Notes: generated by a model from the sequence alone, not told the origin. A stretch of DNA of 64,000 nucleotides from Isosphaeraceae bacterium EP7 (GCA_038400315.1 CP151667.1:3111174-3175173); one strand, 5' to 3'; counted from the first letter of the stretch, positions 41,612 to 56,428 are shown. Numbers and translations are program-made.

Positions 41612-42940
41612 TCAGCCCATCAGCTCCTTGATCGGCGTCGGGTCGCTGACCAGGTGGACCGGCCGGCCGTTGGGGGCGTGCAGGATCTTGCCGGGGTCGA
41701 TCCCCAGCTTGGTGTACACCGTCGAGGCGAAATTCTCGGGGGCCAGGATCCGGTCGACCGCCGCGTACCCGCGCACGTCGGTCGCCCCGATCACCTGGCC
41801 GCCGGGCGTGCCGCAGCCGGCGAAGACCACCGACATGGCGTTCGACCAGTGGTCGCGTCCGCCGTCCTTGTTGATCTTGGGGGTGCGGCCGAACTCGCCC
41901 AGCACGACGACCAGGGTCGAGTCGAGCTGGCCCCGGCGGTCGAGGTCCTCGATCAGGGCGGCCACGGCGTTGTCCACCGGCGGGAGCTTCTTGTCCAGGC
42001 CGTCGAAGATGTTGGTGTGATGGTCCCAGCCGCCGTCGTACAGGGTGACGAACGGGACGCCGGCCTCGACCAGCCGCCTGGCCAGCAGGCAGCGCTGGCC
42101 CAGGGGGTTGCGGCCGTAGGCGTCGCGCACCGAGGCGGGCTCGGCGTGGATGTCGAACGCGGCCTGGGCCTGCTTCGACGACATCAGGTCGTAGCCTTGC
42201 TCGTAGTAGTCATCCAGCGCCACGGCGGGGTCGCCCGCGGACCGGTCGGCGAACCGGCGGAAGCGGTCGACTCGCGACTTCAGGTCGCGCCTGCGGTCGA
42301 ACCGGTCGACGGCCAGCTCGCGCGGCGGGGCGACGTCGCGGACGCGGAAGTTCTCGCGGGCCGGGTTGTCGGGCACCACGAACGGGGCGTACTTGGCCCC
42401 CAGGAAGTTGGGCCCGCCTGATCGGGACATCTGCGGGATCGAGAAGTAAGGGGGCAGGCCGCCGACGGCCCCGCGCTCGCTGGCCACGACGCTCCCCAGG
42501 CTGGGGTGGAAGCTGACGAAGGCCCCGCAGCCGACCGGGATACGCGTGGGCGCGCCGGTCATCATGTAGTGGTTGCCCGCGCCGTGGTTCCCCTGGTCGT
42601 GGCGGATCGACCGGACCACCGCGAGCTTGTCGGCGATGGCGGCCATCTTCGTCATGTTCTTCGAGAAGAACATCCCCGGCACCTTGGTGGCGATCGGGTC
42701 GAAGCTGCCGCGGATCTCCGAGGGGGCCCCCGGCTTGGGGTCGAACGTCTCGTAGTGGCTCGGCCCGCCATCGAGCCAGATCAGGATACAGCTCGTCGGT
42801 TTCGCGGCGGCCGATCCGGCCATCGCCGCCTGCCCGCGCAGGCGCAGGGCGTCGATGAAGCCGCCGCCGAGCATGGTGCCCAGCCCCAGGCGGAGTCCGT
42901 CTCGGCGCGTCATCGACTCGCAGTTGGTGTGCAGGGCCAT
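41612..42940 (-). CDS. DUF1501 family exported protein
   Basis: 442 residues. Starts MALHTNCESMTRRDGLRLGL with a Tat-like TRRDGLRLG pattern. Alkaline-phosphatase/sulfatase-like fold features: CILIWLDGGPSHYETFDPKP (metal-binding Asp), YDGGWDHHTNIF (His pair) and VVLGEFGRTPKINKDGGRDH. The ATG at 42940 lies 35 bases after the DUF1549/1553 gene; the frame is open farther upstream but antisense-like there. DUF1501 and DUF1549/1553 proteins almost always travel together in planctomycetes; likely roles in exported sulfated-polysaccharide degradation or electron transfer are debated. Confidence 0.93.
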   Translation of the reverse strand: MALHTNCESMTRRDGLRLGLGTMLGGGFIDALRLRGQAAMAGSAAAKPTSCILIWLDGGPSHYETFDPKPGAPSEIRGSFDPIATKVPGMFFSKNMTKMAAIADKLAVVRSIRHDQGNHGAGNHYMMTGAPTRIPVGCGAFVSFHPSLGSVVASERGAVGGLPPYFSIPQMSRSGGPNFLGAKYAPFVVPDNPARENFRVRDVAPPRELAVDRFDRRRDLKSRVDRFRRFADRSAGDPAVALDDYYEQGYDLMSSKQAQAAFDIHAEPASVRDAYGRNPLGQRCLLARRLVEAGVPFVTLYDGGWDHHTNIFDGLDKKLPPVDNAVAALIEDLDRRGQLDSTLVVVLGEFGRTPKINKDGGRDHWSNAMSVVFAGCGTPGGQVIGATDVRGYAAVDRILAPENFASTVYTKLGIDPGKILHAPNGRPVHLVSDPTPIKELMG

Positions 42941-42975
42941 GTCGGTCGCTCCCTTCGAGCGTTGGCGTCGAAGCG

Positions 42976-45192
42976 TCAGTCCTTGAAGACGAATTCGGCC
43001 GAGTTGAACAGGGCCCAGAGCAAGTCTTCGGTCGCCAGCCGCCGCGTCGCCGAGCCGTCGAAGGCGGAGCGGCTCTCGCTCACCTCCTCGGGCGTGGGCT
43101 TGCGGCTGAGCGTCAGCAGATAGAGTTCTTCGATGATCGCTTCCGGCGTCTTGTCGGTGGCGGCCAGCGCGGCGGCGCGGCCCGCGTCGTCCGAGATCTT
43201 GGCGTTCAGGGCCGGCGAGTTCATCAGGTGCAGGGCCTGCACCACCGACGTGTCGGGCGTGCGCTCGCAGGGGGGGTCCTGGTTGGGGTCGGGCCGGCCG
43301 AAGGTGTCGAGGAACAGCGAGGGGCTCCGATGCGTCCAGATCGCCGCGGCGCTGGTGCCGGCGGGGGCCGCGTCGAACGACTCGGGGACCTGCGTCACGT
43401 CCACGATGGCATCGAGCAGGCTCTCGGCCCGCAACCGCTGGCGGTAGTGCCGCGAGTAGTTCCTGATGTCGCCGATGTTCCGGTCGTTGGGCTCCGACGA
43501 CAGCCCGTAGACGGCCGAGTTCATGATGGTCCGGATCGTGTGCTTGAGGTCGCACCCGTGCTCGCGGAAGTCCTCGGCCAAGGCGTCCAGCAGCGGCCCG
43601 TTGCTCGGCGGGTTGGTGGCACGCAGGTCGTCCACCGGGTCAACAATCCCACGGCCCATCAGGTCGGCCCAGATCCGGTTGACGATCACGCGGCCGAAGT
43701 AGGGGTTGTCGCGGGCCGTGACCCAGGCGGCCAGGGCCTCGCGCGGGTCGGCGTCGCCGCCGTCTTCGCTCGCCGACTCGGGAGACTTGCCGAAGAGGGG
43801 CTTGGCCTCCAGCGGCTTGCCGGTCAGCGGGTGCTTCACGTCGCCCGTCTTGCCGGCGACGACGATTTCCTCGCCCCCCGAGATCGGCGGCGAGAGGCCG
43901 ACGCCCTTGCGGCCGACCTTGGCGAAGAAGGCGGCGAACTCGTAGAACTGCTCCTGGCCCCACGACTCGAACGGGTGGTGGTGGCACTTGGCGCATTCCA
44001 TCCGGATGCCCAGGAAGAGCTGGGTGACCGTGGTGGTCAGCTCCTCGGGCTCGCGACGGTCGCGGAAGACCACCGCCGCGCCGTTGGTGAACGTGCTCCC
44101 CTTGGCCGCGACGATCTCGCGGACGAACCGGTCATAAGGCCAGTTGTCGCGGAAGGCCTCGCGGACGAACCCGTCCAGGCTCATGACCGCCTTCATGCCG
44201 ACCCGGTAGGGGTTGGGCCGCAGCAGGTCGACCCACTTGTTCGCCCAGTGGTCGGCATACTCGGGGCGGTCGAGCAGGGCGTCGACCAGCGTCGCGCGGC
44301 GGTCGGGGTCGGTGCTGGCCAGGAACGCTCGGGTCTCGTCGGGCGTCGGCAGCCGGCCGATCACGTCGAGATAGGCCCGCCGCTGGAAGGTGGCGTCGCC
44401 GGCCCTGGCCGAGGGGGTCAGTCCGAGCTTCTGCAGCTTCGCCCAGACCAGGCCGTCGATGAAGTTCCGCCTCGGCAATGACTCATACGTCGACGCGGGG
44501 ACGTCGCCGGGCAGCGGGATCGAGACGTCGCAGGTGGCGAACGACCCGAGATAACGCGCCGTGATGGCGGCCTCGCCGGGCAGGGTGCCGGCCTTGATGG
44601 TCCCGCTGTCGTCGACGGCGACGACGGCCGCCTCGTTCGACTGGTAGGCGGCCATCGCGGTGACGTCGGCCGTGGTGCCGTCGGAGTAGTGGGCGGTCAC
44701 GGCCAGCGGGACGGTGGCGCCGGCTTCCAGGCTCTTCTCGGCGGGGCTGACGGTGATCTTCGCGAGCTTGGGGGCGTCGGCCGGTGCCCTGGGCGTGCCG
44801 TCGGCGATCCAGGCCCGCAGCATCTCGAACGGCGGGCTGCCCGGATCGATCTTCCGGCCGCCGCCATGAGGCACGAGCGCGGCGGCCTTCAGCAGCAGCA
44901 GGCTCTGGCCGGGCTCGGCGGGGAAGACCCGCCGGCCGCGCCCTTCGCGGGTGATGGCGGCATGGTCCGAGTCGGTGTCAAACCCCAGCAGGGAAAGCGC
45001 GAACCCGTTCTGCCCCCGGGCTTTACCGTGGCAGGCCCCCGCGTTGCAGCCGAACCGGGTGAGCACCGGCAGGACGTCCTGCTCGTACGTCACCTTCGGC
45101 ACGCGGGCCGGGGCGGCGGCGTGTGCCGGGGCGACTGCCACCAGGGCGAGGATACCCCAGGAGATCGCGGTGCAACCGTTGGAAAGCCGCAT
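42976..45192 (-). CDS. DUF1549/DUF1553 exported protein with cytochrome c-like N-terminus
   Basis: 738 residues starting MRLSNGCTAISWGILALVAV (signal peptide). The N-terminal PSCyt-like domain has a haem site CNAGACHGKARGQ (CxxxxCH, an unusual five-spacing). A bacterial Ig-like (BIG2) domain lies near 160-245 (VPLAVTAHYSDGTTADVTAM). DUF1549 begins NFIDGLVWAKLQKLGLTPS and contains MECAKCHHHPFESWGQEQFY with a second CxxCH. DUF1553 follows (NPYFGRVIVNRIWADLMGRG, LHLMNSPALNAKI). First gene of a three-gene set with DUF1501 and PPC. Confidence 0.93.
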   Translation of the reverse strand: MRLSNGCTAISWGILALVAVAPAHAAAPARVPKVTYEQDVLPVLTRFGCNAGACHGKARGQNGFALSLLGFDTDSDHAAITREGRGRRVFPAEPGQSLLLLKAAALVPHGGGRKIDPGSPPFEMLRAWIADGTPRAPADAPKLAKITVSPAEKSLEAGATVPLAVTAHYSDGTTADVTAMAAYQSNEAAVVAVDDSGTIKAGTLPGEAAITARYLGSFATCDVSIPLPGDVPASTYESLPRRNFIDGLVWAKLQKLGLTPSARAGDATFQRRAYLDVIGRLPTPDETRAFLASTDPDRRATLVDALLDRPEYADHWANKWVDLLRPNPYRVGMKAVMSLDGFVREAFRDNWPYDRFVREIVAAKGSTFTNGAAVVFRDRREPEELTTTVTQLFLGIRMECAKCHHHPFESWGQEQFYEFAAFFAKVGRKGVGLSPPISGGEEIVVAGKTGDVKHPLTGKPLEAKPLFGKSPESASEDGGDADPREALAAWVTARDNPYFGRVIVNRIWADLMGRGIVDPVDDLRATNPPSNGPLLDALAEDFREHGCDLKHTIRTIMNSAVYGLSSEPNDRNIGDIRNYSRHYRQRLRAESLLDAIVDVTQVPESFDAAPAGTSAAAIWTHRSPSLFLDTFGRPDPNQDPPCERTPDTSVVQALHLMNSPALNAKISDDAGRAAALAATDKTPEAIIEELYLLTLSRKPTPEEVSESRSAFDGSATRRLATEDLLWALFNSAEFVFKD

Positions 45193-45320: not shown

Positions 45321-48300
45321 CTAGGGCTTGGGGGCACCCTGGGCTGCGGGGGCCTCTGGGGCGGGGGTTTTGACGAGGCCCTTGGCGGCGGCGATGATGT
45401 CCTCGACGTCGACCCGCCAGGCGACCTCGGGCTCGTTCAGGGGGATCTGCTCCACGAAGGCGTGGCAGGATTGGCCGCGCTCGAGCGGGCGGTTGGTGAC
45501 GCTCTCGACCCGGTAGCTGCCGAACCAGGCGGTGACGTTGACGGGCCCGACCACCTTGTCGCCGGCCAGGTGGGTGATGTTCAGCAGCAGCGAGCGGGTC
45601 GACTCGTCGTAGAGCTGGCTGACGGAGAGATATTCCTGGATCCGTTCGACCCGGAACGGATACTGGCGCCGGGTGATGGTCTCGCCGCCTGGGGCCTTGG
45701 TGATCTCCAGGTGGAGGATGGCCGCCTTGTCGAAGCCCCCCTCCAGGGGGAAGGCCGAGCTCTCAACCCGCCCCGAGGACCCGGCCATGGCGCCGACGAA
45801 CTTGCGGCCTGCGACCGGGATCTCCTTGCCTCGCGTCAGCTTGAGCACCTGGTCGGTGGCGGCCGAGCTCTCGGGCACCTCCTTGCCGTCCATGGCCAGC
45901 CAGGTCCGCACGCGGACGCTCATGTCGAACTCGGCCGTGAGCACAATCTTATATTGCAGATTATTGGTCGGGTGCATGTACCCCTGGCCGGGGTGCTCGC
46001 GGAACTGGTCGGCGGAGGCGATCATGCCGCGGAGTGCGACGGCGATCGGCTCCTTGACCGGCTCGAGCGTGGCCCCGACGGTGCCCGTGCCGAAGAACCG
46101 GCCGCGGTAGAAGGCCCGCGGCGAGAGGTTGACAATCTCGGCCACGGCGCCGGCCTCGGTGCGAGTGACGGTGTACTCGATCCGGCCCGCCTGCGCGGGG
46201 TCGACGGCCGCGGGGACGGCGGCGCGGGCCGATCGGCCGTCGGCCTCGGCCAGGCTCAGCGGCTTCGACGGGTCGAACCGGACGAGCACGGCGGCCTCGC
46301 CGCGCGGCACCCGGCCCTCGGCCACCAGGGCGACTTGCAGGGGCTTCGCCGCCCACGAGTCGAGCCGGATGCCGCCGCCCGGCGTGGCGGCCAGCGAGAG
46401 CCTGGCCTCCAGCATCGCCTCGGCCTCGCGCCTAACCTCGGCCAGCTCGGCCGGCTCGATGGTCGCGGCCTCCTCGGCGGCCCGCAGCAGCCTTCGGGCG
46501 TGCTCGGGGGCGAAGTCGGCCAGAAGGCGCCGGGCGTGCCAGATCGCCTGGGCCTGCCGGAGGGCCTGCCCGAGCGCCTGGGCCGGCCGGTCCCCCAGCG
46601 AGGTCGAGTCGGCCGACGGCAACGACCGGGCCGCCCTGTCTTGCGCGGCCAGGGCGTCGAGGGACGACGAGCCGGCCTTGCGCAACGCCTCCAGGCGGGC
46701 CCGTCGGAGGCCTCGGAGCAACTCCGAAAGGGCCTCGAAGGCGGGGGTCGGGTCGGAGGCCACCGAGGCGCCCGCGGCATTCCAGCGGGCCTCGACCTCG
46801 GCCAGCTCCTGGGCGTCCGCCCCGCCGATCTCCAGCAGGCCCCACTCGACACGCGCCAGGGCCAACGCATACGTCCAGAACGAGGGGTCGACCGGCAGGG
46901 CCCCGCCGGACCCGCCGATGCGCTCGGCGATCACCCCGGTGTCCTCACGCTTGCCCCGGGCGGCCAGCTTTTCTCGGATCGACTCGCCGACATAAGTCCC
47001 CACGTCGGTCGCCGTCGACGAGGCCGCCGCCGAGGCCACGGCCGCCTCATCGGCCAGCACGCCGGCGATGGGCCTCGACCGGACACGCTTGAGCAGCAGC
47101 GACCGCGACTCGGCCGGGACCAGGGGGGTCGCGAGCAGGGAGTCCAGCTCGCGGAAGCCCCCGCCGAGGCCCGACTCGACGGCGCGGGCGAAGTCGTTCT
47201 TCAGGGCGTCGAAGGCCCCCTTGACCCGTCCCGAGAGCCGGTCGATCTCGGCCAGCTTGCCTTCGAGGGCCGCCAGGGGAGCGTCGCCGTCGCGGTTCGA
47301 GGACGCTGCGGGGACCGGCCCCGCCAGGGCGCGGGCGAGCTCGGCCGCCTGGGCCATCAAGGTGACGAGGTCGCCGTCGAGCGGCCTGCCACGCAGCGAG
47401 GCCTGCCTGGCACGCCAGCGGCCGTAATAAGGGAGGGTCGCCTGGAGTTCGTCGAGCAGGTCGACCGCGCGGGCGCACCTGCGAGCCGCGCCCAGGGCAC
47501 GGCCGCCGCCCAGCCGGGGATTGGCCGCCTCGTCGAGCGCCTGGCCGTAGCGGGCCTGCGCCAGGTCGAGGCGGCTGGCCAGGCGTTCGGAGTCGGGCTC
47601 GGATTCGGCGAAGAGGGCGTCCTGAACCCGCCTCCGCAAGGCATCGCCTTCATCGACATAGGGGGCGATCCAGCGGGCAATCCTGATGTCGGCCGAGGCG
47701 GCCTCCTCGGCAAGCCGCCTCAGGCGCTGGAGCCTGGACAGGAGCTCGAACCGGCCGCCGCGGAAGGGGTCGGGCACGCCCGACTGCCGGGCGAAGACTC
47801 CGGCCCAGAGCAGGGCCTGCCCCTCGACATAGTCGGGCCTGTCGACCCCCACCGAGTCGGCCGCCAGGGCCCCCGCCATGGCCGAGGCCAGGTCGTTCGT
47901 GCCGGCCTCGGGCTTGGCGTCCTGCGCCGGGGGCGGTGTCGGTGCGGGTGCCGGGGCGACCTTCTCGGCGGCGACTTCGGCCTTGGCGGGGGCGTCTTCC
48001 TTGCCGGCGGCGGGCTTGGGGGACGGCTTGGCGGCGGGTGCGTCGGCCTTCGAAGGCTCGCGGGGCTTGGCTTTGGGCTCGGCGGGAGCTTTGGTCGCAA
48101 AGTCCTCGGCGGGGGCTCCCGCGGGGGCGGGGGGAAGCTCGGCCTCGGCGGGGGTCATGTCCAGGCGCTGGTCGCCGGCCAGGGCTTTCATCAGGTCATC
48201 CAGGCGCGTCAGTCCGTTGACGAACTCGCGGCGGCCGTCGGCGATGGAACTCTGGAGCAGCTCGCGGCGGAGCAGGGCCAGCGACCAGGGGTCCTTGACG

Positions 48301-49562
48301 GGCGGGCCGTTCAGGCCTTGTTCCAGGCGGCGGCGCTGGGCCTCGGGCTCGGTGGTCAGCAGCGCCAGGGCGTCGTCGTGCCGGCCGGCGCGGTCGAGGC
48401 GCTCGATGTGCATCAGCGTCTCTTCATATTGCCGCCAGAGCGAAGGCGACCAGCGATAGGGCCGGCGCAGGGCCAGGCGGTCGTGGGCGGCCCAGGCCGC
48501 GGCATGCTGCGAGGCGAAGCGGGCGCGCGGGTCTTCTTCGCCTTCCTTGGGCGCCTCGGCGACCGGCTGGGGCGATGCCGACGCCGGCCTGCGCGTGGCA
48601 CGCAGGGGGAAGTTCAGGTCGGCCCTGGCCACGACGAGGGTGGGGGTCTGGACGGCCCGGCGGTTGGTCTCGACCCAGGCCTCGACGTTGGCCCTGACGT
48701 AGCTGGCCAGGCCTCGCACCGTCAGCCGGCGGGGGTTGTCCGGGTCCCAGGCCCCTTGGGCCTCGCCGGCAAGGCCCCTGGCGACGAAGTGGGCGAAGAC
48801 CGAGGCCCCGCCGGCCTCGGTCGACCAGCTCGACTGGCCCGGCCCGGATGAGCAGAGCACCGCCAGCCTGGGCAGCTCGCGGCGGGCGACGGCCTGCTTC
48901 AGGCGGGCGGCGAAGGTGTTGCCGTAGACCCCCAGGTCGCGGTCGCTGTCGACCTGCCCGGCGTCCAGGATGAGCAGGGCGTCCCTGCCAGGATGGGCGG
49001 CGAAGACGTCGATGAGGCGCTCGGCGGTGACCCTCGTCGCGGTCGAGGGCGCCGTGGCGTCCAGGCCCGGGGCATCCGGCGGCAGCAGGATCGCCTTGCC
49101 CTCGACCCCCGCCCCTGCGGCCGAGAGATAGACCACCACAGGGCCGCTTCCCTTGGTGTCGAGCAGGGCCGCGATGGGCGCGAGCACGTCGCCGTCGGTG
49201 CGCTCGGAGCGGTCGACGGTCGCGGGCCGCAGCCCCTTGACCAGCCGGAGGTCGGCCGCCTGGAACCCGACGATCGGCCCGCCGACGGACCTCTGGGCGA
49301 CGTACCAGCCGGCGATGCCCCCGCGCGGCCTGGAGGCGGCCAGCCAGAGCAAGATCCAGGCCAGGAGCACCGCGGCGGTCACCAGGGCGGTGGCCACCAG
49401 GATGAGGGCCGAGAGCTGAGGCCTGGACATCCGCCCCAGGCCCAGGGCACCGGCCAGCGCCGGCGGCCTACGCCGCGCGGGCCTCGAAATCGTCTCCGGC
49501 ATGGCCTGGCTCGCGGGGTTGGCGGGAGGGGCAGGGGAGGCCGACATGGCCTGATCCGGCAT
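45321..49562 (-). CDS. giant membrane-anchored pseudo-caspase
   Basis: 1413 residues from ATG 49562 (an ATG five codons later is possible). Pro/Ala-rich N-terminus, one transmembrane helix near 50-76 (LSALILVATALVTAAVLLAW), then a caspase-like domain at about 95-310: GPVVVYLSAAGAGVEGKAIL, DALLILDAGQVDSDRDLG, AVLCSSGPGQSSW and GASVFAHFVARGL. The usual His (SGHG) and Cys (LDC) positions are Ala-Gly and Ala here, so it is probably not a protease. An Ala/Pro/Lys-rich linker follows (~475-550), then a long helical region and a beta-rich C-terminus (~1090-1400). It is divergent from tssK with a 180-base shared upstream region, and I infer a scaffold or regulator of that system. Confidence 0.82.
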   Translation of the reverse strand: MPDQAMSASPAPPANPASQAMPETISRPARRRPPALAGALGLGRMSRPQLSALILVATALVTAAVLLAWILLWLAASRPRGGIAGWYVAQRSVGGPIVGFQAADLRLVKGLRPATVDRSERTDGDVLAPIAALLDTKGSGPVVVYLSAAGAGVEGKAILLPPDAPGLDATAPSTATRVTAERLIDVFAAHPGRDALLILDAGQVDSDRDLGVYGNTFAARLKQAVARRELPRLAVLCSSGPGQSSWSTEAGGASVFAHFVARGLAGEAQGAWDPDNPRRLTVRGLASYVRANVEAWVETNRRAVQTPTLVVARADLNFPLRATRRPASASPQPVAEAPKEGEEDPRARFASQHAAAWAAHDRLALRRPYRWSPSLWRQYEETLMHIERLDRAGRHDDALALLTTEPEAQRRRLEQGLNGPPVKDPWSLALLRRELLQSSIADGRREFVNGLTRLDDLMKALAGDQRLDMTPAEAELPPAPAGAPAEDFATKAPAEPKAKPREPSKADAPAAKPSPKPAAGKEDAPAKAEVAAEKVAPAPAPTPPPAQDAKPEAGTNDLASAMAGALAADSVGVDRPDYVEGQALLWAGVFARQSGVPDPFRGGRFELLSRLQRLRRLAEEAASADIRIARWIAPYVDEGDALRRRVQDALFAESEPDSERLASRLDLAQARYGQALDEAANPRLGGGRALGAARRCARAVDLLDELQATLPYYGRWRARQASLRGRPLDGDLVTLMAQAAELARALAGPVPAASSNRDGDAPLAALEGKLAEIDRLSGRVKGAFDALKNDFARAVESGLGGGFRELDSLLATPLVPAESRSLLLKRVRSRPIAGVLADEAAVASAAASSTATDVGTYVGESIREKLAARGKREDTGVIAERIGGSGGALPVDPSFWTYALALARVEWGLLEIGGADAQELAEVEARWNAAGASVASDPTPAFEALSELLRGLRRARLEALRKAGSSSLDALAAQDRAARSLPSADSTSLGDRPAQALGQALRQAQAIWHARRLLADFAPEHARRLLRAAEEAATIEPAELAEVRREAEAMLEARLSLAATPGGGIRLDSWAAKPLQVALVAEGRVPRGEAAVLVRFDPSKPLSLAEADGRSARAAVPAAVDPAQAGRIEYTVTRTEAGAVAEIVNLSPRAFYRGRFFGTGTVGATLEPVKEPIAVALRGMIASADQFREHPGQGYMHPTNNLQYKIVLTAEFDMSVRVRTWLAMDGKEVPESSAATDQVLKLTRGKEIPVAGRKFVGAMAGSSGRVESSAFPLEGGFDKAAILHLEITKAPGGETITRRQYPFRVERIQEYLSVSQLYDESTRSLLLNITHLAGDKVVGPVNVTAWFGSYRVESVTNRPLERGQSCHAFVEQIPLNEPEVAWRVDVEDIIAAAKGLVKTPAPEAPAAQGAPKP

Positions 49563-49742
49563 ATTACCACGAAGGAGATACGCCCGCGGCGTCAAATGCG
49601 GACACTCGCGGCCGGCGTCGGGCCGGTCAAAATGGGCCAGATCGGGACATGCCCCTTCAGGTCGGGCGGCCGATGATCTATGCTCGCTGCGCCGAGGGGT
49701 CGCGACCCGGGGCTGGGTCGCGCGGGGGCAGGGCGGGCTGCG

Positions 49743-51149
49743 ATGGCACACCGGGCGGTCTACTGGCACGAGGGAATGTTCCTCCAGCCCCACCACATGC
49801 AGGCGGCCGACCGCCATGCGCACGAGGCGCTGGTCACCTCGGAAGAGTGGTCCGGGCCGTTCGCCTGGGGCGTCCGCCGGTTCGAGCTCGACCGCGAGGC
49901 CGTGGGCAACTCCACCGCGCTGCTGCGCGGCTGCGAGGCCCGACTCAAGGACGGCACCAAGGTCTCGATCCCCGAGGACTGCGACGTCGCGCCCGTCGAG
50001 CTGAGGTCGGCGCTGGCCGCCTCGGGCTCGGTCACGCTCTACCTGGCCGTCCCCGCCTTCAGGCCGGGCCGGGCCAATGCCCAGCCCGCCCCCACCGCCG
50101 ACGGGCCTCGGTATTGGGTCGAGGAGCTGGACGTCGCCGACGAGAATTCGGGCGGGGCCGAGCAGCCCATCCAGGTGCGTCGCGTCCGCGCCCGCTTGCT
50201 CCTGTCGGGCCAGGACCAGACCGGCTACGAGGTGCTGCCGCTGGCCCGGATCACCCGGTCGGCGCAGGTCGAGGCGCCCCCGGAGGTCGACCCGTCGTAT
50301 GCACCCCCCTTGCTGCGTCTGGACGCCTGGCCGCCCCTCTGGAACGCGGTGCAGTCGCTCTATCATCAGGTGGGGGCGAAGGTCGACCAGCTCGCCTCGC
50401 AGGTCGTCGACCGCGGGATCTCGCTGGACAGCCAGGTGCCGGGCGACGCCGAGCGGGTGCTGAAGCTCTCGGCCCTGAACGCGGCCCTGACGGCACTGGA
50501 GGCGATCGCCTTCCTGCGCGGGCTGCCGCCGCTGACGGTCTTCCGCGAGCTCTGCCGGACGGTCGGCCAGCTCGCCATCTTCACCGAGGCCCGGCGGCCC
50601 CCGGCGCTCCCCAAGTACGATCATGAAGACCTCGGCGGTTGTTTCTATGGTGTCATCAAGCTGATTCAATTGGGACTCGACTCGATCGCCCCGGCCGCCT
50701 TCGAGAAGCGCTACTTCGAGCGTGCCGGCGAGCGGCTCCAGGTGGCGCTCGAGCCCGCTTGGCTGGCGGGCTCGCGGACGCTCTACCTCGGCGTGGAGAC
50801 CGAACTGGGCGACCAGGAGTGCGAGGGGCTGCTGCGGTCGATGGACATGAAGCTGGGCAGCTCGGCACGCGTCGAGCAGATCTTCAAGCAGGCGCTGCGG
50901 GGCCTGAAGCTGGTGCCGGTCGCCCGGCCGCCCAGGCAGCTCCCGGCGGGGTCGGGCATCGTGTATTACCAGGTGGAGCGCGACGCGGTCTTCTGGAAGG
51001 ACGTGGTCGACACGGCCTCGATGGCCCTGCGGATGAACATGGCCAGGGCCGCGTTCCAGGGGGACCGGATGCTCGCGGTCGCGACCCCCGGCGGGGGCAA
51101 GGCGGCCAACCTCCAGTTCGCCCTGTTCGTGATCAATCAATCGTCATGA
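49743..51149 (+). CDS. tssK: type VI secretion baseplate protein TssK
   Basis: 468 residues. MAHRAVYWHEGMFLQPHHMQ is the TssK signature. The body includes GVRRFELDREAV, LPLARITRSAQ, RLDAWPPLWNAVQSLYHQVG and the C-terminal neck/head with KAANLQFALFVIN. TssK trimers link the baseplate to the TssLM membrane complex in T6SS machines. Start chosen at the signature Met; the frame upstream has no sense. Stop overlaps the tssL start (ATGA at 51146-51149). First gene of tssK-tssL-tssM-like. Confidence 0.92.
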   Translation: MAHRAVYWHEGMFLQPHHMQAADRHAHEALVTSEEWSGPFAWGVRRFELDREAVGNSTALLRGCEARLKDGTKVSIPEDCDVAPVELRSALAASGSVTLYLAVPAFRPGRANAQPAPTADGPRYWVEELDVADENSGGAEQPIQVRRVRARLLLSGQDQTGYEVLPLARITRSAQVEAPPEVDPSYAPPLLRLDAWPPLWNAVQSLYHQVGAKVDQLASQVVDRGISLDSQVPGDAERVLKLSALNAALTALEAIAFLRGLPPLTVFRELCRTVGQLAIFTEARRPPALPKYDHEDLGGCFYGVIKLIQLGLDSIAPAAFEKRYFERAGERLQVALEPAWLAGSRTLYLGVETELGDQECEGLLRSMDMKLGSSARVEQIFKQALRGLKLVPVARPPRQLPAGSGIVYYQVERDAVFWKDVVDTASMALRMNMARAAFQGDRMLAVATPGGGKAANLQFALFVINQSS

Positions 51150-51781
51150 CAGAACCTTTCGCAAGTGTCGTCGGCCCCCTCTTCCAGCACGTCGTGGACC
51201 TGCTCGGCCGCATCGACCGGGGCGAGGCCGGCTCGCTCGACGACGAGCGCCGGGGGATCGTCGCCGCCGTCGAGGAGGCCGACCGACGGGCCGCGGGGCT
51301 GGCGCAAGTCGCACAAGGTTATCAATTTTCCAGACATGCCATCATCTACTGGATTGACGAGGTCCTGACCGACTCGCGCTGGGCCCACGCCGGCGAGTGG
51401 CGTCAGCGCATCCTGGAGTGGGACTTCTACCGCGACCGGATCAGGGCCGACGCCTTCTATGAGCGGCTGGACCGCGCCGAGCGGCTCGACTCGGTCGACC
51501 CCCTGGAAGTCTTCCTGCTCTGCCTGACGCTGGGCTTCCGCGGCAGGCTGGCCGACGACCCCGACGAGCTGCGTCGGGTGGTGGGCCGGGTCTACGGGCG
51601 GGTCGCCGCGGGGTCGACGCAGGCCGATCGGTTCCTCGCCGACGAGGCCCCCCGGGGCAAGCCGATCCGGCCCCTGCCGGGCAAGTCGACGCTGCTGGCC
51701 GCGTGCATCCTGGTCTCGCTGTCGGTGCTGTTCACCCTGGCCTGCTTCGTGCTGGCCGTGCCTCCCCCGCTCTGGGACTGA
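51146..51781 (+). CDS. tssL: type VI secretion membrane protein TssL (DotU family)
   Basis: 211 residues. Cytoplasmic helical domain with QFSRHAIIYWIDEVLTDSRW, LEWDFYRDRIRADAFYERLD, VDPLEVFLLCLTLGFRGRLA (the DotU motif) and a single C-terminal transmembrane anchor LLAACILVSLSVLFTLACFV, as in tail-anchored TssL. No peptidoglycan-binding OmpA domain. Overlaps the end of tssK by four bases; the tssM-like gene begins 36 bases later. Together they form the inner-membrane part of the machine. Confidence 0.9.
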   Translation: MTEPFASVVGPLFQHVVDLLGRIDRGEAGSLDDERRGIVAAVEEADRRAAGLAQVAQGYQFSRHAIIYWIDEVLTDSRWAHAGEWRQRILEWDFYRDRIRADAFYERLDRAERLDSVDPLEVFLLCLTLGFRGRLADDPDELRRVVGRVYGRVAAGSTQADRFLADEAPRGKPIRPLPGKSTLLAACILVSLSVLFTLACFVLAVPPPLWD

Positions 51782-51817
51782 CCCGAGGAGAGGCATCCTT
51801 CCGCCTCGACGTAATCC

Positions 51818-53269
51818 ATGAATCTCTTCCAGACCTATCTGACCAGCACGGCGCTCGGCATCATCACGGCGCTGGGGCTCGGCACGGCGTTGGCGTTCGC
51901 CTGGTTCCGCGGCCGGCTCACCTGGCGCCTGGTCGTAGGCCTGGTGGCGGTCTCGCTGGCCATCCTCTTCCTGGTCGTCCTGCCCCGCGTCTTCCCGGAC
52001 GCCACGGCGTCGCTGGGTGACCTGCCCGAGCTGTTCCGGGGCTGGTTCTGGGCCTGGCTGCTGGCATTCGCGCTCGGGGTCCTGTTCTCGGTCACGTTCC
52101 TCGTCCGCGTGATCCTCGCCTCCAGGCCGTCCGGCGTCGCCGAGCCCGACGAGTCGCGGGTTGACGGCCGTTACCCCGAGATCGACGCCGCCTGGGACGA
52201 GATCCTGCTGCGGCTGGCCCAGGCCCGGATCGAGCTCGCGGATCAGCATGTCTACCTCGTCCTGTCGCCCGACGAGGACGCGATGTCGTCGCTCGTGGAA
52301 TCGGCCGGCCTCCAGGTCTTCGCCAGGGCCCCGGAAGGCCCCGCACCGCTCCACGCCTATGCGGTGGCCGATGGGGTGCTGATCAGCGTCTCGGGGGCGT
52401 CCGCCTTCGGGATGCGGGATTCGGCGGGGGCCCAGCGGCTGGAAGATGTCTGCCACAAGCTGCGGGCGCTCGACCCGGATCGGCCGGCGTTGCTCGGGGT
52501 GGTGGTGCTGGTGCCGCTGGGCTGGGCCGGGCAGCCCGACTCGGTGAAGTGGGCGGCGTCGGTGCGCGACGACCTGCGCGCCATCGAGCGCTCCACGCTC
52601 GTCTCGTGCCCGGTCTTCGCCCTGTTCGGCGAGATGGAGAGCGCCCCCGGCTTCGCCGAGTTTTTGGCCCGGATGTCGCCCGCGTCGCGCCAGGGGCGAT
52701 GCGGCTTCGCGGTCCCCCCGTCGCGCGAGTTCGACGGCGACCTGGCCCGCGACGGCCTGGCCTGGATGGCCGGCTGGTTCGACGGCTGGGCCCTCAGCCT
52801 GATGGCCGACGACCCGATGAACTCCCTGGGCAACGGCGAGCTGCTGACCCTGGGCAATGAGTTCCGCCGCTACCGCAAGCGGCTGCGTTCGATCCTGGAG
52901 TCGGCCTTCTCGACGATGAGGCCCGTCGACCCGGTCCAGTTCCGCGGCTGCTACTTCGCCGCCACCGGCCACAACCCCAGCAGCCAGGCGTTCGCCGCCG
53001 GCCTCTTCAGGGGCCCGACGGCCAGGGTGATCCGCGAGCACGTCGCGGCCCGCTGGACCACGCAGGCCGTCGAGGACGACCGCCGCTACCGCCGCCTGGC
53101 CCTGGTCGTGGCCGGCGTCGGCCTGGCCCTGCTCATCCCCGCCTGGTTCTACATCCTGGCCGAGGCCGAGTGGCTCAGGCCCCTCTGGTACGCCGCGCTG
53201 GCCGCCCTGGTGGTCGCCTGGATCTACGCAGGATACCGGATCTTCGCGGGAAGACACACTCACGCCTAG
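51818..53269 (+). CDS. short TssM/IcmF-like membrane protein with degenerate P-loop
   Basis: 483 residues, much shorter than classical TssM (over 1000). Two N-terminal helices (LGIITALGLGTALAFAWF, LVVGLVAVSLAILFLVV), a third near 75-95, a cytoplasmic domain like the TssM N-terminal GTPase-like domain (PALLGVVVLVPLGWAG, SCPVFALFGEMESAPGFAEF) and two C-terminal helices (LALVVAGVGLALLIPAWFYI). Where TssM has GxxGxGKT this protein reads LVLSPDEDAMSS, so nucleotide binding is doubtful. The large periplasmic part of TssM is absent, so either the complex is simplified or another protein supplies it. Confidence 0.8.
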   Translation: MNLFQTYLTSTALGIITALGLGTALAFAWFRGRLTWRLVVGLVAVSLAILFLVVLPRVFPDATASLGDLPELFRGWFWAWLLAFALGVLFSVTFLVRVILASRPSGVAEPDESRVDGRYPEIDAAWDEILLRLAQARIELADQHVYLVLSPDEDAMSSLVESAGLQVFARAPEGPAPLHAYAVADGVLISVSGASAFGMRDSAGAQRLEDVCHKLRALDPDRPALLGVVVLVPLGWAGQPDSVKWAASVRDDLRAIERSTLVSCPVFALFGEMESAPGFAEFLARMSPASRQGRCGFAVPPSREFDGDLARDGLAWMAGWFDGWALSLMADDPMNSLGNGELLTLGNEFRRYRKRLRSILESAFSTMRPVDPVQFRGCYFAATGHNPSSQAFAAGLFRGPTARVIREHVAARWTTQAVEDDRRYRRLALVVAGVGLALLIPAWFYILAEAEWLRPLWYAALAALVVAWIYAGYRIFAGRHTHA

Positions 53270-55396: not shown

Positions 55397-56428
55397 ATGA
55401 CGAACCCCCGGCGACGACGCCCCTCACGGATGGCCTTCACGCTGATCGAGCTGCTGGTGGTGATCTCGATCATCGCCGTATTAATCGCCCTGCTGCTGCC
55501 GGCCGTGCAGGCGGCGCGCGAGGCGGCCAGGCGCATCCAGTGCACCAACAACCTGAAGCAGCTCGGGCTCGCGTTGCACAACTACGAGAGCGGCGTGGGG
55601 GCGCTCCCCCCCTCGTTCATCATCTCGGTGCTGGTCGACGGCACGAAGAAGCTGAGCGCCTGGAGCGTGCACGGGCGGATCTTGCCGTACATGGAGCAGT
55701 CGGCGATGTCCAACGCCATCAACTTCAACTACAACTATGAAGACCCGGGCAACACGACGGTCTCCAACACCAACGTCGCGGCCTTCCTCTGCCCCAGCGA
55801 GCTTCACCCCGAGCCCAAGGCCAGCGCCTACGGCCCGCAGGGGGTTTCCAGCTACGGGTTCGCCATGGGCGACTGGTTCGTCTGGGGCGGCCTGGCGGGC
55901 CCCTACAATCGGTCGGCCTTCGGCCCCAACCGCAGCGTCACATTCGCCAACATCACCGACGGCCTGAGCCAGACCCTGATGGCGGGCGAGGTGAAGACGT
56001 ACACCATGCGCATGAACAACTGCGCACTCTCGCTCATCAACAATCCGGCGAACGTGCCGATGCCCGACGCCTCGCCCGAGGCCGTGGCGCCCGAGTACGT
56101 CGGCCCCTGCGCCATCAAGAACGATGCCCACACCGTCTGGGCCGACGGCGGCGTGCTGGAGTCGGGCGTCACCACCGCATGGACCCCCAACCGCCCGACG
56201 ATGGGGGGCCCCGCGCGGCTGGTCGACATCGACATCGTGGGCTCCAGCGAGAAGACCCTGAAGCCGGTCTTCGCCGCCGTCAACTCGCGCAGCTACCACC
56301 CGGGTGGCGTCAACGCCCTGATCGCCGACGGCAGCGTCCGTTTCCTCAAGAGCACGATCAACGGCGCCACCTGGCGCGGCCTGGGGACGATCGCCGGAGG
56401 CGAGATCCTGTCGGCCGACTCGTACTGA
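55397..56428 (+). CDS. DUF1559 family prepilin-like protein
   Basis: 343 residues. Prepilin-type leader RMAFTLIELLVVISIIAVLI followed by LLPAVQAAREAARRIQCTNN. Ends with the family HPGGVNALIADGSVRFLKST. Same family as the protein at 2737-3753 but not a close copy. The WD40 gene starts 30 bases later on the same strand, so the two may be co-transcribed. Confidence 0.93.
   Translation: MTNPRRRRPSRMAFTLIELLVVISIIAVLIALLLPAVQAAREAARRIQCTNNLKQLGLALHNYESGVGALPPSFIISVLVDGTKKLSAWSVHGRILPYMEQSAMSNAINFNYNYEDPGNTTVSNTNVAAFLCPSELHPEPKASAYGPQGVSSYGFAMGDWFVWGGLAGPYNRSAFGPNRSVTFANITDGLSQTLMAGEVKTYTMRMNNCALSLINNPANVPMPDASPEAVAPEYVGPCAIKNDAHTVWADGGVLESGVTTAWTPNRPTMGGPARLVDIDIVGSSEKTLKPVFAAVNSRSYHPGGVNALIADGSVRFLKSTINGATWRGLGTIAGGEILSADSY

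Follow-up and report, generated by a model that had tools for sequence, protein, structure and literature searches.

Truncated TssM proteins and co-inherited giant pseudo-caspases suggest a lineage-specific type VI secretion membrane complex in Planctomycetia

The type VI secretion systems (T6SS) of the class Planctomycetia were found to carry a truncated TssM that has lost its Walker A motif, to be without detectable TssJ, and to be strictly co-inherited and linked with a family of giant pseudo-caspases. The locus at the centre of this analysis lies in Isosphaeraceae bacterium EP7 (genome G000; family Isosphaeraceae), in a stretch of 64,000 nucleotides (G000:C1:3111174-3175173) referred to as the window, where tssK, tssL and tssM are divergent from a gene for one of these pseudo-caspases. 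The family that includes this window protein is named PCASP below. We consider it probable, with some reserve, that the Planctomycetia possess a T6SS membrane complex of their own, specific to the lineage, whose periplasmic part is supplied by giant pseudo-caspases, and we infer for them a scaffold function, a periplasmic location and physical contact with the remaining complex. The features of the locus are as follows, in window positions.

45321-49562, minus strand: PCASP, 1413 residues, a single transmembrane (TM) helix and a degenerate caspase-like domain (translation; family from iterated hidden Markov model (HMM) searches)
48588-49235, minus strand: caspase-like domain of PCASP, approximately residues 110-325 (family alignment; PF00656 in relatives)
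49350-49406, minus strand: only predicted TM helix of PCASP, residues 53-71 (hydropathy scan)
49563-49742, no strand: 180 intergenic bases between the divergent PCASP and tssK starts
49743-51149, plus strand: tssK, baseplate subunit docking to the membrane complex (PF05936, E=1.3e-81; TIGR03353, E=5e-86)
51146-51781, plus strand: tssL, DotU family, short form (PF09850, E=1.7e-29)
51818-53269, plus strand: truncated tssM, 483 residues (PF14331, IcmF-N, E=1e-14)
52256-52291, plus strand: former Walker A of TssM, degenerate, LVLSPDEDAMSS (column-by-column alignment with the GxxxSGK[ST] of long TssMs)

The tight packing of tssK, tssL and tssM that had been noticed was confirmed in the sequence, with ATGA as the tssK/tssL junction and 36 bases between tssL and tssM. 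The window TssM, first noted at about 480 residues, has five TM helices, placed at its N-terminus and its C-terminus on either side of a cytoplasmic domain. It has no periplasmic domain, and TIGR03348 matched it at model positions 199-367 only. A Walker A motif is present in most canonical TssMs. In the window protein it is not kept: LVLSPDEDAMSS, residues 147-158, falls exactly on the Walker A columns of long TssMs, in agreement with the broken P-loop proposed originally. A second, full classical tssM elsewhere in the genome, named at the outset as one of two possible arguments to the contrary, was rejected, since the TIGR03348 search of the whole genome gave one match, the window gene itself.

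Unusual features of the same kind were seen in T6SS throughout the class. Profile searches over 179 whole Planctomycetia genomes found TssK in 80, TssC in 76 and both in 75, and TssJ (PF12790) in none of the 179, although a highly diverged TssJ could escape the profile. Genes were called by codon usage with our own caller, so that start sites may be inexact, and TM helices were predicted by hydropathy scan. The 46 class TssMs that were read are 472 to 762 residues long (median 525). Their cytoplasmic domain follows TM helices at the N-terminus, and one or two more TM helices close the protein at its extreme C-terminus. As a family they align to residues 9-457 of the long TssM family (hhalign, E=1e-27), the alignment ending at the helix where the periplasmic domain of the long TssM starts. 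Where TIGR03348, the full TssM model of 1168 positions, matched in T6SS-positive class genomes, it did so at positions of about 160-390 and in frames of 480-580 residues. The sole exception is a full-length match in genome G103, which has no TssK (G103:C97, L109:997-5070, minus strand). It lies on a 9.9-kb contig, is 74% identical to Paraburkholderia phymatum, and was set aside as probably contamination or a recent transfer. Every aligned short TssM is degenerate at the Walker A columns, and none has the motif intact at its normal position.

PCASP was followed with a profile of its N-terminal part of about 800 residues (A1, an iterated HMM), a match being called strong at E<=1e-35. The profile was seeded from T6SS-neighbouring genes, yet the search covered whole genomes, so that T6SS-negative genomes were equally able to match. 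Strong PCASP matches were obtained in 69 class genomes, and all 69 have a T6SS. Of the 98 T6SS-negative genomes none gave a strong match, and those matches that they gave are the size of the caspase domain. PCASP and T6SS agree in their occurrence inside genera g4, g5 and g14 as well; in g4, for example, G012, G017, G036 and G064 have both PCASP and T6SS and G032 and G056 have neither. Of 26 genomes in which the distance was checked, 22 have their best PCASP no more than 60 kb from tssK or tssC, and iterated searches of fetched loci showed relatives adjoining tssKLM in many T6SS clusters. Tandem pairs of copies, with starts 3-10 kb apart, occur in 42 of the 69 genomes. A scan of named genomes with a four-sequence alignment matched two Singulisphaera loci only; the divergent order of PCASP and tssK seen in the window recurs in two Singulisphaera genomes and in G100. 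The association of pseudo-caspase and tssKLM is thus conserved and not scattered, so that the other possible argument to the contrary, scattered co-occurrence, fails as well.

A control was available within the phylum. It consisted of the T6SS-positive genomes outside Planctomycetia in a sample of 216 planctomycete genomes. These systems (e.g. L115-L128 and L130-L132) share the phylum and the TssK-L-M order with those of the class, but 16 long TssMs read there have 1140-1560 residues, with the Walker A motif in nearly all and a TM helix at about 430-470 followed by a periplasmic part. TssJ is present in many of them (28 of the 216 genomes). No full PCASP was found outside the class, where A1 matches span little beyond the caspase domain (model positions of about 60-330). 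The loss of the TssM periplasmic domain, the loss of TssJ and the presence of PCASP thus coincide. Within this control, the TssMs of L115-L127 (1270-1560 residues) have a periplasmic part that barely matches TIGR03348 and are mostly without a TssJ match; they are possibly another variant of the membrane complex or an intermediate.

The window PCASP, whose 1413 residues and divergent start 180 bases from that of tssK were as first noticed, is itself matched by no Pfam or NCBIfam model. In the family alignment the expected catalytic His is Ala149 (49116-49118; SAAG for S-x-H-G) and the expected Cys is Gly202 (48957-48959; LDAG for LDxC), so the His-Cys dyad is missing, as had been noticed from the sequence. 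Both residues are also lost in most relatives; a few others keep one of them. One relative (L068:4290-9233, minus strand) keeps both motifs, as SAHG and LDVCH, and a few members may therefore still be active peptidases. A relation to peptidase family C14 (caspases and metacaspases) is suggested by the alpha/beta secondary-structure pattern and in PF00656, which matches 6 of 25 PCASP relatives, one intact-looking relative at residues 147-325. The differences from C14 are the missing His and Cys and the more than 1000 residues of other sequence to which the domain is fused; in addition, weak caspase-domain matches occur in T6SS-free planctomycetes as well. A caspase-type ancestry suggests an origin in processing, and together with the few relatives that retain His or Cys (both, in the L068 protein) it would suit a maturation factor that is not part of the channel, for example a peptidoglycan-opening or chaperone-like accessory. 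Since the window protein and the majority of its relatives have no catalytic pair any more, and no glycanase domain was detected, we regard such a role as very improbable.

PCASPs are single-TM proteins of about 1250-1900 residues. In most complete members the one TM helix lies near the N-terminus, usually after a basic tail, which predicts a periplasmic body. An N-in topology is likewise predicted for the window protein because of its Arg-rich N-terminal tail, and would place residues of about 75-1413 in the periplasm. Members of about 1600 residues end in a vWA domain or in CarboxypepD_reg/immunoglobulin-like (Ig-like) domains. The single-copy proteins of Isosphaeraceae are shorter (1244-1413 residues), with C-terminal halves that show a partial relationship to the same part of the long forms. 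Large multi-domain proteins whose relatives carry Ig/CarboxypepD_reg/SdrD_B-like and vWA C-termini, all of them surface-adhesion domains, could be effectors delivered by the T6SS or adhesins of the cluster that aid contact with prey. We find this improbable: almost all complete members have the N-terminal TM anchor, no fusion to PAAR, VgrG or Hcp was seen among PCASPs, and one or two PCASPs accompany each T6SS class-wide in a near core-like distribution, whereas effectors turn over rapidly.

In these systems TssM is pared down to its inner-membrane and cytoplasmic half, with the ATP-binding loop lost and no TssJ detected. We propose that TssL and the short TssM form an inner-membrane ring to which TssK docks from the cytoplasm. 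Beside this ring, PCASP oligomers, each anchored by one TM helix, would build a periplasmic vestibule standing where the TssM periplasmic domain and TssJ act in other systems. The proposed architecture of the vestibule protein is a degenerate caspase fold, a long helical region and a beta-rich or vWA/Ig-like C-terminus, with the pseudo-caspase domain serving as a binding or oligomerisation module and not as a protease. A more specific proposal has a somewhat less than even chance in our judgement: the T6SS would have a third trans-envelope complex in addition to TssJLM and TssNQOPR. Its periplasmic channel would consist of one giant pseudo-caspase or of two, in many cases one of the vWA type paired with one of the Ig/CarboxypepD type, set on a truncated TssM devoid of the ATP loop.

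Several observations weigh against a scaffold of this kind. The association of PCASP with T6SS has a Fisher value of 2e-37, which is inflated since the test treats genomes as independent and ignores their phylogenetic relatedness. Among the 26 genomes checked, 4 have PCASP more than 400 kb from the T6SS matches compared. No strong PCASP match was obtained in 12 of 81 T6SS-positive genomes; the assembly is fragmented in four of the 12, and weak matches lie in frames of 1300-1900 residues in several, but in G177 no match, even weak, was found. The PCASP of Isosphaeraceae is often single and without the vWA/Ig C-terminus, so PCASPs may not all share one role. The two halves of PCASP were modelled with AlphaFold from three sequences, but the models were of low quality (pLDDT 43-45) and give no fold evidence; the fold search with them was empty or uninformative, and a PDB sequence search with the PCASP profile returned coiled-coil-like chance matches only. 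Furthermore, hhalign found no homology of PCASP to the TssM periplasmic domain (probability below 2%). PCASP as a relocated TssM periplasmic domain was rejected on this ground, and any replacement would be analogous. The original proposal that the pseudo-caspase replaces periplasmic TssM is nevertheless well motivated, because the TssM periplasmic domain and TssJ are absent together, and with the class-wide genomics now behind it we consider it plausible.

Finally, co-inheritance suits a regulator as well as a scaffold. In the main rival reading PCASP serves the T6SS specifically, as an envelope sensor or regulator on which assembly or firing depends, much like PpkA/TagQRS, and the channel is formed by the short TssM and a putative small protein. 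PpkA carries a periplasmic vWA domain. Strict co-inheritance with the T6SS, the vWA and degenerate peptidase domains, which are common ligand-binding modules, and the transcription of the PCASP gene apart from tssKLM in the window genome would all agree with such a role. On the other hand, only about 50 residues of the window protein are predicted to lie on the cytoplasmic side, with no kinase or other signalling domain found in it, and PCASPs are very large, often paired and present exactly where the periplasmic half of TssM and TssJ are absent. We therefore judge a sensor or regulator unlikely, and retain the scaffold as the preferred reading.

The tail components belong to the same genome. 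TssB/C, Hcp, VgrG and ClpV were not identified within the window, as first reported, but this is an effect of the window edge. TssC (PF05943, E=4e-143) is found at G000:C1:3182159-3183061, 7 kb beyond the right edge, within a single-strand operon at 3178426-3193693 (locus L035) with the order ImpE-TssA-TssB-TssC-Hcp-TssE-TssF-TssG-VgrG-DUF6931-PAAR-ClpV. TssB (PF05591, E=1.6e-61), Hcp (PF05638, E=1.9e-34), VgrG (PF05954/PF04717), PAAR (PF05488), TssE (PF04965) and TssG (PF06996) were identified by profile, and TssF was assigned by operon position, size and conservation in the T6SS clusters of relatives. The ClpV-type ATPase (L035:16055-18694) is ClpB-type with two AAA domains. The start of impE lies about 14 kb downstream of the tssM end and 3.3 kb past the window end. 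The tssKLM genes of the window make up the membrane and docking half of a complete T6SS split in two clusters. Its relatives Singulisphaera sp. GP187 (G132) and S. acidiphila (G160) have both halves closer together, within about 10 kb. The suggested reduced, sheath-less machine was accordingly rejected, the genes for sheath, tube, spike, baseplate and ClpV standing in an intact operon 14 kb away; the overall interpretation offered originally is partly supported. That the T6SS is decaying or partial and that a mutation cut tssM short, for which the short TssM, the lost P-loop and the division of the gene set between two sites could be cited, is scarcely credible beside this operon and is already contradicted by the class-wide conservation of the truncation, which is the same in the 46 TssMs read, with all frames open.

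Compared with the canonical T6SS(i) of E. coli and Paraburkholderia, the planctomycetial system shares TssA, B, C, Hcp, E, F, G, K, L, VgrG, PAAR and ClpV as well as a short TssM homologous to the N-terminal half of TssM, but lacks the TssM periplasmic domain, the Walker A motif and TssJ and has the giant PCASP added. A precedent for a replaced membrane complex is TssNQOPR of the Bacteroidota T6SS(iii), with the five-TM inner-membrane hub TssN, PKD domains in TssP and a vWA domain in TssR (PMC10781749). There the periplasmic parts of TssJLM are replaced, as they probably are in Planctomycetia, and the five-TM hub has a counterpart in the five-TM window TssM; Ig-like (PKD) and vWA domains occur in the periplasmic components as in the long PCASPs. 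Unlike Bacteroidota, Planctomycetia have retained TssL together with a remnant of TssM. The similarity of domain types is suggestive and is not evidence of homology.

Two forms of the T6SS membrane complex are known, and the Planctomycetia would add a class-wide third. If correct, this would separate the parts of TssM that a T6SS can do without from the functions that need replacement, and a large family of catalytically dead caspase-like proteins would acquire a role. Earlier work on planctomycetes found in the search is limited to a 2009 note of a T6SS in Rhodopirellula baltica (PMC2660368). No description of the present membrane complex was found in the open-access literature, subscription journals and preprints lying outside the search. 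Singulisphaera acidiphila DSM 18658, a cultured species, has the same arrangement as the window genome.

Some further observations were made on these clusters. The DUF6931 protein of the tail operon (L035:14932-15681) stands between VgrG and PAAR and is likely a spike adaptor or accessory, because its homologues adjoin VgrG in relatives. Tandem TssC pairs (about 495 plus about 500-540 residues) occur in many planctomycete T6SS clusters (L051:4790-8028, L061, L097, L098, L115, L120), and in several genomes a further TssC-like match, the third, is very divergent (E about 1e-45 to 1e-62); mixed or alternative sheaths are possible. In three Isosphaeraceae genomes unassigned giant proteins of 2700-2900 residues stand beside T6SS genes, namely in L059 (2733 residues), L069 (2845 residues) and L112 (2889 residues). 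The flanks of the window locus are ordinary planctomycete genes, with DUF1501-like and DUF1549/DUF1553 proteins at 41612-45192 and a DUF1559 protein at 55397-56428.

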